Source of the DNA: Sphingobacterium sp. R2
GTDB taxonomy: Bacteria > Bacteroidota > Bacteroidia > Sphingobacteriales > Sphingobacteriaceae
DNA: 64,000 nucleotides
Reading direction: 5' to 3'
Assembly (NCBI RefSeq): GCF_040760075.1
Contig: NZ_CP142884.1
Span: forward strand, 4,216,001-4,280,000
Part shown: positions 5,407-20,084 of the stretch, piece after piece
Position numbering within the stretch: the first letter of the stretch is position 1
How the letters are laid out: the number at the start of each line of letters is the position of its first letter
Program-made: the position numbers and the translations under genes
Notes under the pieces: generated by a model
What the model saw: only the letters and a program-made list of their open reading frames with translations
Told to the model about the DNA's origin: nothing
Database searches by the model: none

Positions 5407-5501
5407 GGGATCATACCGAAAGTTTGGGATCATACCGAAAGTTTGGGGGGCAGTAAGTTTTAAGGGATCATACCGAAAGTTTGGGGGGCAGTAAGTTTTA
5501 A
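5407..5501. repeat. 38-base tandem repeat at the IS end, 2.5 copies
   Basis: Two identical 38-base units at 5426-5463 and 5464-5501 and a leading half unit at 5407-5425, each beginning GGGATCATACCGAAAGTTT. The unit nearest the ORF contains the transposase stop codon (5498-5500). Confidence 0.9.
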
Positions 5502-6479
5502 GCATATAATTTCATTACTCGGTATAGGAAGAATGTAGTATCTCTAACCCCTCTGAATATGGCTCTAAAAGATTTTAATTTAGCGTTGAAAGATTCTGCA
5601 GAAGCATTCGTACTCTTATTATCAAAATAGTGAAGGATATTTGCGTGGTGTGCCGCAATAGATCTTGCTACACTTTCGAAAGACTGTATTCCAGCGTTTT
5701 CTACCTGATTATGCCACAACGCTAGTTTAGTAAAAGCACCTTCTTTACTCTTAGATTTATGGAAGATGTTACCTAATGCTAGACTCAAATCATACGCTTT
5801 TTAATAATGGAAACCGCAAGAAAAGCAGCTCTGCTCGATATTTTTGACTTTCAGACCATCTAGAAGGATGTTTGAATAGTAGATGCCTAGATCTTGCAAG
5901 TAATTGTTTCAAGGTATCTCCGTTTGAAAGTATTTCTGGCTCATAAGACTCTCCTTGCTTACGAGCTTGTGTTATCTTATAACTTTCTTCATCTAAGACC
6001 TCCCAGCGATATTTGATCCGTAACTCCTGTACAGCATCGTAGGCTAGTTTTTGTACATGAAATCTATCTATTACTCGTCTAGCATTTCTAAAGCATCGCT
6101 GGATAGCTTTAGCCATATTGGGTGCCATGTCCATGGTCACTTCCTTTACTTTATTCCTCAATCTTAAAGGAATACGTTCTAAAACGTTAATAATATCTTC
6201 AGCTTTAGTTCCTTTGATGGTAGCTAAAATAGTTCCTTTTTTGCCTTTAGCCGCTTTATTACTCACAATAGTATAAAGTTCGCCGTTACTGAAGCTCGTT
6301 TCATCAATACTAAGTTTTTCGCTTATATTATCTGTAAAAAGTGTCCATTGCTCTGCGTGAGATTTCTGATCCCAAGACTGAAAATCGCTCAGATAATTCT
6401 TGTATTGATCTTGTAATTGCTTGCCGTCCATCTGGAAGAATAACCCTACCAAGTGGGCACTTACAGGATAGTTATCCAA
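5498..6479 (-). pseudogene. ISAon1-type transposase, frameshifted
   Basis: The first part, from a TTG at 6479, reads DNYPVSAHLVGLFFQMDG, then the family's LSIDETSFSNGELYT (catalytic Asp-Glu region) and DRFHVQKLAYDAVQELR, and stops at RFPLLKSV near 5790. The family sequence continues in another frame from about 5790 to 5498 (AYDLSLALGN, then STNASAESFNAKLKSFR and a C-terminal KLYA). Joining the halves needs one base removed or two added beside a run of five A residues. I judge this a mutation, because known relatives read straight through here. Confidence 0.75.
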
Positions 6480-16373: not shown

Positions 16374-19300
16374 TTAAAAGGTCAATGAAACCCCTGCAGA
16401 AAAAGATCTAGATGCGGGATAAATGCCCAGATCGGTACCTATCTGTACATTGCTGCCTGAGGTAACCTCCGGATCAAAACCTGTATATTTGGCCCAGGTT
16501 AAAAGATTTTGAGCCGTTAGATAGAGATTAAGTTCCTTTATCTTAGCGTCCTGAAGCCACTCTTTAGGAAAACTGTATCCGAAATGCAATGATTTTATCC
16601 GTACAAAAGAGCCGCTTTCTACAAATTGGTCCGAAAACACAGGAGCCGGATCCAACTTCGCACGGGGATAAGAATGACTCGGATTTGAGGGAGTCCAGCG
16701 CTCCAATGCATCAATTGATGCATTCTGTTGACCGGTAAACATCTCCAAATTCTGCCTATTAATATTCAGAAGATCATTCCCGACAGTGCCTTGGATAAGA
16801 AACGAAAGATCAAAACCCTTATAGGAAATACTATTGGTCAATCCAAAAATAAAATCCGGCTGTGCATTACCTAAAATCGTTCTATCATTTGCAGTCGTAA
16901 ATCGTCCGTCACCATCGATATCTTTGTAAAGACGGTCACCCGCTTTAGGACTGGCATTTCCTGTAAATTTACCCTTGGCACCCTCCTCTCCCGACTGCAG
17001 AATACCGTCAGTAACATTGCCATAAAAGGTGCCTAGAGGCTCTCCAACTTTAATGATATAATTTCCAGAAATATAAGAACTGGCGCCGTCACCAATCTTC
17101 AGTACGCTGTTGCGATTCAGGGAAAAGTTTACATCTGTGCTCCAGCTGAACAATCCCTCGATATTCCTCGATTTCAACCCCAATTCAAATCCTTTATTTG
17201 ATACAGAACCAAAATTTTGAAGGGAAGAGGCATAACCGGAGGTCCAAGGTATTTCCACATTAAGTAAGAGATCCTTTGTCTTTTTATAATAATAATCAAC
17301 TGTAAATTGAAGACGCTTTTTAAGTAAACTGATATCAAAACCACCATCATATTGTACAGTGCTTTCCCAACCGAGGTTTTTGTTGGGAATACGTTGCGGG
17401 GCAAAACCAGTGACCACGTTGTTTCCAAACAGATAATTTAGGCTATATAAGGTAGATAAGGATTGATATTGCCCGATTTCTTGATTACCTGTGGTTCCAA
17501 AGCTTGTACGAATCTTAAAATCATCTACTCCAGGAAATGCTTCCTTAAAAAAAGACTCATTGGCAGCGCGCCAAGAAAGTGCTATCGACGGGAAATTTCC
17601 CCATTTGTTGTCTGCCCCAAAGCGAGAGCTACCATCACGACGTAGACTGGCCGAAACATAATATTTGTTTGCGAAATTGTAATTTACCCTGGCAAGATAA
17701 GAGTGTAATACCCATGTGTAGCTGTCAGAAGAAGGACGCACAATGGTAGATCCACTCTGTAGATTATTGAACAGTAAGTCGTCGGTCACAAAATTTTCTG
17801 CTCCAGCGTTGAAGATCGTATTTTTGGTTTCTTGCTGCGTAAATCCTATTAAAGCATTGAACGTATGTTTTCCTGTGTTCGCCGAATAGTTTAATGTGTT
17901 TTCATTCAGCCATGAGGTTCCATCCAAATTCCCTAAGCTTGCTTTCCCCTTTGAGCCTGCCCCCTCATAGATATAGGATGGCAAATAAAACTTATCATTT
18001 CGGCCATTTAGGTCAACGCCAACCAACACCTTCGCTTGTAGACCTTTTAAAATACGATATTGTCCAAAAGAAGTTCCCAATATCCGTAGTCCATTGGATG
18101 AATTTGTCGTTTCTTTTAAGGTCGCTATTGGGTTGGCAAAGATGTTTTCAAAAGGATTTCGCAATGTATAAGCACCGTTGGCGTCATACACAGTTGCCGT
18201 CGAAGGCATTAGAAGCAGAGCGTTGACAATTCCTGTCGGAGCTATTTGCGCATAAGTTTTGTTGATCGATAAATTTGCACCAACCTGTAACCGGTCGAAA
18301 GGATTGGCGTCGATATTTGATCTAAATCCTACACGCTTGAAATTAGTGTTGACAATGACACCCTGCTGATCAAAATAATTTGCTCCTAAATAGTATTTCA
18401 CTTTTTCAGCTCCACCCGATAAAGAAAGCTGCTGATTATAAATCTTCCCAGTACGAAACGCTTCTGTTTGCCAATTTGTACCAGCACCCAGCTGATCGAT
18501 TTCAGTTTGACTGCGGTATTGAAAAGCTCCGAGGTTGGGATTCGCATCGTACAAAGCCTCATTTCTTAAGATTGCAAAATCGTGAGCATTCAATACCTCG
18601 ATTTGTTTCAATACATTTTGTGCGCCAAAACTCCCATCATAGTTTAATTGTACCTGTCCTGCTCTACCTTTTTTTGTTGTTACCAAAATTACCCCATTCG
18701 CCCCTCTGGATCCGTAGATTGCCGTTGCAGCAGCGTCTTTTAGAACTTCAATACTTTCAATATCAGTTGGGCTGATGCTTGCTAATGGGTTGACTGGTGT
18801 ACCGCTCCCTACTCCCGTACTTTCAGTTTGATTATATACCGGAAATCCGTCAATAACATAAAGGGGTTCATTTCCCCCTTGTATGGATGCGCCACCGCGA
18901 ATGCGAACACTCACACCCCCGCCTGGTTGTCCCGAAGTTTGTGTAACCTGAACGCCCGAGATCCCCCCTTTCAATGCCTGATCAAGCGAGGATACGGGCT
19001 GTCTGAGAAGCTTCTCAGGCAAGGTCGCCACAGCTCCAGTGAGATCACGACGTTTCTGGGTTCCGTACCCTACAACCACAACCTCATCCAAGTCTGTTGA
19101 GATGGGCGATAACGCTATTACAGTCGGTGAAGAATTGACGACTACCTGTTTTTTCTCATAGCCTACAAAACTGACAATTAACGTAAATGGAAGCTTCTGT
19201 CCTGTCACAAACTGGAAATTACCTTGGTTATCCGTTTGTACACTATGTGTTACCGCTTCCAATTGTACCGTAACGCCCTGAATGGGTTCTTTGGTTTTCG

Positions 19301-19427
19301 CATCGATAACTTTACCGATTAACGATGCATTAATAATTGGTCTGGGTTCTTGTGCCCGTACACTTCCAAATGCGTACAGAAAAAGCACCATTGAAAGCGA
19401 ATACCAAAGTACTCTGTGTTTTTTCAT
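16374..19427 (-). CDS. SusC/RagA-family TonB-linked outer membrane transporter
   Basis: TonB-dependent beta-barrel importing oligosaccharides or other polymers. Signal peptide of about 25 residues, a carboxypeptidase-D regulatory-like domain (LIGKVIDAKTKEPIQGV, to about residue 110), then the plug with DEVVVVGYGTQKRRDLTGAV, the SusC signature GGNEPLYVIDGFP and IEVLKDAAATAIYGSRGANG, and a long barrel ending in an aromatic SLTF. 1017 residues, intact. It heads the minus-strand operon susC-susD-sulfatase-sulfatase. The 620-base upstream region has a likely promoter and several inverted repeats. Confidence 0.96.
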   Translation of the reverse strand: MKKHRVLWYSLSMVLFLYAFGSVRAQEPRPIINASLIGKVIDAKTKEPIQGVTVQLEAVTHSVQTDNQGNFQFVTGQKLPFTLIVSFVGYEKKQVVVNSSPTVIALSPISTDLDEVVVVGYGTQKRRDLTGAVATLPEKLLRQPVSSLDQALKGGISGVQVTQTSGQPGGGVSVRIRGGASIQGGNEPLYVIDGFPVYNQTESTGVGSGTPVNPLASISPTDIESIEVLKDAAATAIYGSRGANGVILVTTKKGRAGQVQLNYDGSFGAQNVLKQIEVLNAHDFAILRNEALYDANPNLGAFQYRSQTEIDQLGAGTNWQTEAFRTGKIYNQQLSLSGGAEKVKYYLGANYFDQQGVIVNTNFKRVGFRSNIDANPFDRLQVGANLSINKTYAQIAPTGIVNALLLMPSTATVYDANGAYTLRNPFENIFANPIATLKETTNSSNGLRILGTSFGQYRILKGLQAKVLVGVDLNGRNDKFYLPSYIYEGAGSKGKASLGNLDGTSWLNENTLNYSANTGKHTFNALIGFTQQETKNTIFNAGAENFVTDDLLFNNLQSGSTIVRPSSDSYTWVLHSYLARVNYNFANKYYVSASLRRDGSSRFGADNKWGNFPSIALSWRAANESFFKEAFPGVDDFKIRTSFGTTGNQEIGQYQSLSTLYSLNYLFGNNVVTGFAPQRIPNKNLGWESTVQYDGGFDISLLKKRLQFTVDYYYKKTKDLLLNVEIPWTSGYASSLQNFGSVSNKGFELGLKSRNIEGLFSWSTDVNFSLNRNSVLKIGDGASSYISGNYIIKVGEPLGTFYGNVTDGILQSGEEGAKGKFTGNASPKAGDRLYKDIDGDGRFTTANDRTILGNAQPDFIFGLTNSISYKGFDLSFLIQGTVGNDLLNINRQNLEMFTGQQNASIDALERWTPSNPSHSYPRAKLDPAPVFSDQFVESGSFVRIKSLHFGYSFPKEWLQDAKIKELNLYLTAQNLLTWAKYTGFDPEVTSGSNVQIGTDLGIYPASRSFSAGVSLTF

Positions 19428-19700: not shown

Positions 19701-19906
19701 AAACTATTCCACAATAAAATCTATATACTTAGTAGTTTATTTACAAAAAAGTAAATTCCCTTTTAATCAGTAAAGCTACTACACAACGATCAACTATGAT
19801 TTGATGAAATTTTTGTTACAAAGGCATAGCCCATCCAAAATTTTACTCCGCTAATTTCTAAGGCTAGCAAAACCTAATCAATTCATACCCAAATTTGCCA
19901 TTTAGA

Positions 19907-19983
19907 CAGTGCTTGTTCAGTGCTCGTTCAGTGATTACTCAGTCATCATTCAGTCAGTAGTGACGAAGTAGTGACTAATTACT
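19907..19983. repeat. Phased 11-base repeats upstream of the DUF6266 gene
   Basis: Units begin every 11 bases: CAGTGCTTGTT (19907), CAGTGCTCGTT (19918), CAGTGATTACT (19929), CAGTCATCATT (19940), CAGTCAGTAGT (19951), then the weaker GACGAAGTAGT (19962) and GACTAATTACT (19973). One unit is close to one DNA helical turn. The array ends about 100 bases before the DUF6266 start codon. Confidence 0.8.
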
Positions 19984-20084
19984 GGCTAAAAAATGTATAA
20001 ATTTTGTTTATAGGGATAAATTGATATTAGGTTTTACCAGCTTTAATGCTTATATTAAATGTTTATAAACTTAATAAAGCAATT

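Follow-up and report, generated by a model that had tools for sequence, protein, structure and literature searches.

Phage 186 Apl, lambda Xis, Pukovnik Xis and other RDFs are small winged-helix proteins that act at att sites and promoters, where they bind tandem direct repeats 10-11 bp apart in a cooperative, head-to-tail manner and bend the DNA (PMC7498355). Streptomyces BldC, the nearest solved relative of the gene found next to many of the arrays described below, also forms head-to-tail oligomers on direct repeats of varying number, but its sites are 9 bp long, its regulon is dispersed and it has no such long dyad arrays (PMC5859096). Apl arrays comprise five and seven repeats in one direction, whereas the arrays reported here are chromosomal and contain about 10-20 half-sites in two converging arms; unlike in the RDF systems, no integrase was noticed in the DUF6266 loci examined. 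The ParR centromere parC of plasmid R1 consists of two sets of five 11-bp direct repeats flanking the promoter beside parM/parR. The array studied here also has two sets of five, but these are inverted and abutting, and no ParM or ParR genes were recognised by eye in the listed DUF6266 neighbourhoods. REP/ERIC-type elements are dispersed intergenic imperfect palindromes; here, in contrast, both the period and the half-sites have been kept, and a single layout recurs in front of one gene family although the sequence families differ. We regard the array as a probable operator array of a kind known elsewhere, here in a variant form at a gene family without a described function.

The window, a stretch of 64,000 nucleotides from Sphingobacterium sp. 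R2, carries one such array at 19907-20006, with ten half-sites, five forward and then five inverted (Table 1). The forward CAGT half-sites start at 19907, 19918, 19929, 19940 and 19951, and their exact 11-bp spacing agrees with an earlier note on this DNA. That note counted five clear and two weaker units and ended the array at 19983. The five clear units stand; the weaker ones are in fact inverted half-sites of a dyad that the note missed, with AGTG, AGTG, ACTG, AATG and TTTG at 19959, 19970, 19981, 19992 and 20003, 11 bp apart and in the same phase. Its proposals of helical phasing and of a binding array rather than CRISPR are both supported: the period of 11 recurs across arrays, and a CRISPR array is ruled out by an 11-bp unit without spacers or any repeat-spacer structure.

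Table 1 Features of the array locus in the window
Feature	Position	Strand	Basis
Left flank of the unit, conserved (TTTTGTTACA ... CCAAATT)	19811..19906	+	Common to dispersed copies
Left arm, five CAGT half-sites	19907..19954	+	Direct reading and family alignment; family pattern CAGTnnTnnnT
Right arm, five inverted half-sites	19959..20006	-	Alignment against 38 other copies and dyad test; pattern AnnnAnnACTG
Leader from array to gene	20007..20084	+	Common to other copies as far as the DUF6266 start codon
DUF6266 gene, 219 aa	20085..20744 (longest frame from 20046)	+	Pfam PF19781, E=2.1e-15

Periodicity was scored as the number of matches over 77 bp after a given shift (the lag), with thresholds of at least 43/77 for a scan of 1.314 Mb of the same genome and at least 40/77 for DUF6266 loci. 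The best 77-bp stretch of the window array matches itself at 55/77 at lag 11, the maximum of the 64-kb window, in which the next score is 39. The 1.314-Mb sample was partly picked around DUF6266 genes and gives no basis for a whole-genome total of arrays; within it, 12 stretches reach the threshold at lag 11, and the multiple lag 22 gives 11, compared with 0-1 each at lags 8, 10, 13, 14, 16, 17, 19 and 20. Of 73 arrays of the window-array kind, 65 have a two-arm dyad that exceeds shuffles of their 11-mers at z>2.

Two other features of the region were observed. In two parts of the genome that are not linked, a SusC/TonB-type receptor gene and a DUF6266 unit are divergently oriented (window 16374-19427 and L263 7031-10117). 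The window also contains a perfect tandem 38-bp duplication, GGGATCATACCGAAAGTTTGGGGGGCAGTAAGTTTTAA, at 5407-5502, and similar sequence flanks arrays L043 and L036; this is perhaps an insertion-sequence end.

The link between such arrays and DUF6266 genes, proposed in the earlier note together with a check for the period upstream of other family members, is confirmed. Within the genus Sphingobacterium, a period-11 array lies upstream in 30/36 DUF6266 loci and downstream in 0/36, and in other genera of the family 11/29 loci reach the threshold of 40 upstream and 0/29 downstream; the loci were taken as best-scoring hits and some are related to one another, so that the counts do not represent independent samples. 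Over the 700 bp upstream of the 36 genus genes, the mean best scores are 46.3, 41.8, 40.2 and 36.9 at lags 11, 22, 33 and 44, against about 29 at most other lags and 29.0 at lag 11 downstream. The other-genera loci have a second period, of 10 bp, closer to the gene. Across the phylum, where DUF6266 occurs in 26/395 genomes, the lag-11 trend is weaker (36.4 upstream vs 31.1 downstream). Beyond the family, 18 further families of the class were sampled with pieces of at most 20 kb, next to two pieces that consisted of N alone, and none contained an array; this is too little sequence to exclude arrays there.

The array words vary with the class of DUF6266 gene (CAGTG, TTCGA, TTAGGG, CTTTG, CATCG, TTACG and others), while the period remains constant, and about ten distinct word classes show the same array pattern before DUF6266. 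In TTCG-class loci, up to 11/12 TTCG words share one 11-bp phase and are followed by in-phase CGAA words, with the TTCG/CGAA junction fixed at 13 bp wherever both junction words are intact. Some loci depart from the simple layout. L051, L063, L064 and L010 have a second, proximal 11-bp array upstream of DUF6266 (two units, one different, two units), whose words are GGACA, CGGTC or CCTGTCA and which in several cases is followed by a conserved ATACCGGTAT palindrome. A 7-bp period in L065 and a 9/37-bp period in L095 replace or adjoin the 11-bp array.

The window array also belongs to a dispersed family. The 200 bp around it recur at eight more places of the genome with 69-82% identity, and the element is present in 13 of the 60 genomes searched (own genome included), all Sphingobacterium; the DUF6266 on an S. 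multivorum contig is 71% identical. The copies have flanks in common, and several lead into the DUF6266 start codon or a remnant of it. In the family alignment, length differences between copies correspond exactly to the gain or loss of one 11-bp unit, which bears out the suggested growth by whole units. The earlier note had taken the same array at unrelated genes to speak against its proposal. Copies without an adjoining gene do occur, but several of them retain DUF6266-start remnants, and these lone arrays are under selection. Core positions are conserved at 0.97 in both lone and gene-linked copies, whereas flanks have decayed to 0.64 in lone copies vs 0.79 in gene-linked ones. Between this genome and the sister species G116, the differences in seven syntenic lone arrays amount to 9/419 for core positions and 50/277 for variable ones (2.1% vs 18.1%; Fisher p=1.6e-13), with the core defined from other genomes. 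This conservation of core over variable positions indicates that arrays work without a DUF6266 gene alongside.

Lone arrays of other word classes have gene-linked partners in the same genome: L015 for the TTAGGG arrays C1:6081 and C1:401893, and L011 for the CTTTG array L114. The two TTAGGG-class arrays (L104:6081 and L142:11893 in locus coordinates) are near-identical with period 11, and they directly follow two long segments, mutually 98% identical, which are probably ribosomal RNA operons.

A candidate for the binding protein is encoded next to many arrays. In 38/65 DUF6266 loci, a small winged-helix gene is found upstream in the same orientation, and as a rule it stops shortly before the array; with a background of 3 hits per 864 kb, the expectation is about 0.3. 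Its product matches HTH_17 and also phage excisionase and regulator families. Among the structures, RacA and the phage protein Gp37, which we take to be an Xis, are weaker-scoring matches to the winged-helix profile. The best solved relatives are 6AMA (E=1e-4) and 6AMK (3.5e-4), both BldC-DNA complexes (PMC5859096). The profile has no hit in the 64-kb window, and nearly all CAGTG-class units likewise lack one within 1.5 kb. For this reason, the window copy is classed not as a member of the BldC/Xis type but only as working like one, and its binder would be either a trans-acting protein or DUF6266 itself.

Further genes accompany the array. Some loci encode a LytTR-type regulator upstream of the winged-helix gene, and downstream of DUF6266 the gene content varies and can include a second DUF6266, a membrane protein of 128 residues, a CHAP protein that matches phage endolysins, DUF5675 and a lipoprotein. 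The membrane protein has the size of a holin, and the labels holin and spanin derive from size, order and hydrophobicity alone. A conserved chromosomal operon was seen in L009, L011, L047, L051, L079, L264, L265, L266 and L271, in which a regulator and the winged-helix gene precede the array, and one or two DUF6266 genes are followed by membrane protein, CHAP endolysin-like or DUF5675, and lipoprotein. It resembles a lysis cassette, with no obvious prophage around it. At L118 8942-9319 (C1:3508942-3509319), a winged-helix gene precedes a short array with a dyad, whose lag score of 37 is under the threshold, and no DUF6266 lies within 1.5 kb; the nearest one, L010, lies about 20 kb away without an array of its own, which suggests that an insertion divided one unit. 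That the L118 winged-helix gene is still followed by an array is a weak hint for a winged-helix binder.

The DUF6266 protein of the window scores 57.2 bits against PF19781, compared with a curated cut-off of 23.4. Its AlphaFold model (pLDDT 91.7, pTM 0.81) predicts a fibronectin-III-like fold for residues 109-219 (best Z 10.0, rmsd 2.3 over 93 residues). The N-terminal domain, modelled alone from a 38-sequence alignment with L009 as the first sequence (pLDDT 86.9), has no clear PDB match (best Z 2.8 with VIA-align 2); its predicted fold thus stays unplaced, which does not make it new. Over 65 members, the mean net charge is +8.7 for the N-terminal part and -4.9 for the remainder. Phage records and PHROGs gave no convincing DUF6266 match and PADLOC gave none, and a literature search found no paper on DUF6266 and, with the terms tried, none on such arrays.

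Together, these results make it very probable that a DNA-binding protein uses the window array as a landing strip. We lean slightly towards an operator for a BldC/Xis-type winged-helix protein that controls the DUF6266 lysis-type operon. Its main rival, which we hold to be rather unlikely, is that DUF6266 binds its own array through the basic N-terminal domain, for autoregulation and at dispersed sites in trans. The charge of that domain and its lack of a known fold match would suit such a role, and the CAGTG class has retained array and DUF6266 with no adjoining winged-helix gene. However, the domain shows high conservation between classes with entirely different array words, and the gene stands first in a lysis-type operon, an unusual position for a repressor. 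Distribution also bears on this point: among 94 genomes of the genus, CAGTG arrays occur in 25 and a CAGTG-class gene in 24 of these, with no genome that has the gene only and a single one, a contaminated draft, that has the array only. Since each gene brings its own array, this co-occurrence is partly trivial, and its informative part is solely that genomes with the array only are nearly absent. With its gene next to the array in 38/65 loci, the BldC/Xis-like protein is the better candidate, though the gene is absent at the window copy. The LytTR-type regulator is an improbable third candidate. LytTR regulators bind direct repeats (PMC5859096), and one upstream neighbour has a LytTR domain (Pfam 3e-4, just under the cut-off) that others resemble, but a second such neighbour has no Pfam hit and the gene lies farther from the array than the winged-helix gene.

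Two further explanations were weighed. A selfish dispersed repeat of the MITE/REP type, with the array as its transposase-binding end, could account for scattered intergenic copies that have flanks in common and that are present or absent between sister species. We consider it improbable as well, because most copies in this genome have syntenic counterparts in the sister species, the half-sites are under selection, the layout is kept before one gene family in many classes, and no terminal repeat with a target duplication was seen at the one site examined. In the alignment of that presence/absence site, 404 bp stand against about 30 bp without a clean duplication; L197 and L203, present in the sister and absent here, show no clean insertion. 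A search for an empty site through the gene downstream of the window unit found the unit in the sister and different neighbours in other genomes. Alternatively, the array could be transcribed and act as a long RNA hairpin, or as a cruciform, a reading that we reject as highly improbable. One turn of A-form helix is 11 bp, and predicted stems are strong in several copies (-71 kcal/mol in L008 and -62 in L007), so the earlier note's remark that the array is not a hairpin holds for the poorly folding window copy, little better than shuffles, but not for sister copies with near-perfect stems. Over 39 aligned CAGTG copies, however, the arms do not covary: complementarity is 31.41 for true pairs vs 31.19 +/- 0.18 for permuted ones (maximum of 400: 31.69). 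Rfam gives no match for the array up to E=1, and some classes have promoter-like sequence between array and gene. What is conserved is each half-site separately (CAGTnnTnnnT and its mirror), not the stem, and this individual retention is the mark of a protein-binding site.

We then propose a model for a winged-helix-coated operator, inferred from the fit of the array and its neighbour gene to the Apl/Xis/BldC scheme. In this operator, half-sites spaced by one helix turn would be arranged head to tail in two sets that converge. Winged-helix protomers may load cooperatively on each arm, perhaps as a filament, and bend the DNA, and the bound array would control the promoter of the downstream gene. 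In intact loci, the protein probably also controls its own gene, just upstream. An intact unit would comprise the genes for a LytTR-type regulator and the winged-helix protein, the array, one or two DUF6266 genes, and genes for a holin-like protein, an endolysin-like CHAP protein or DUF5675, and a lipoprotein. The window would then represent a reduced unit, array and DUF6266 stripped of the winged-helix gene, and lone arrays may be units that lost the gene and retained the platform.

It is tempting to speculate that these units form a chromosomal release system, an unlikely extension of the model. A winged-helix switch on a two-armed array would drive the DUF6266, holin, endolysin and lipoprotein genes, a minority of cells would lyse and free DUF6266, and array-only stations would be kept as platforms for the same switch protein. 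Such a system, if true, would be so far undescribed in Bacteroidota. The constant geometry with changing words offers a natural series on specificity change in DNA-coating winged-helix proteins, and the selection on lone arrays suggests that a so far undescribed set of sites extends across the chromosome. Through the array, DUF6266, a family without a described function, gains a control region together with a probable regulator and an operon of lysis-like type, all of which can be tested in laboratory strains.
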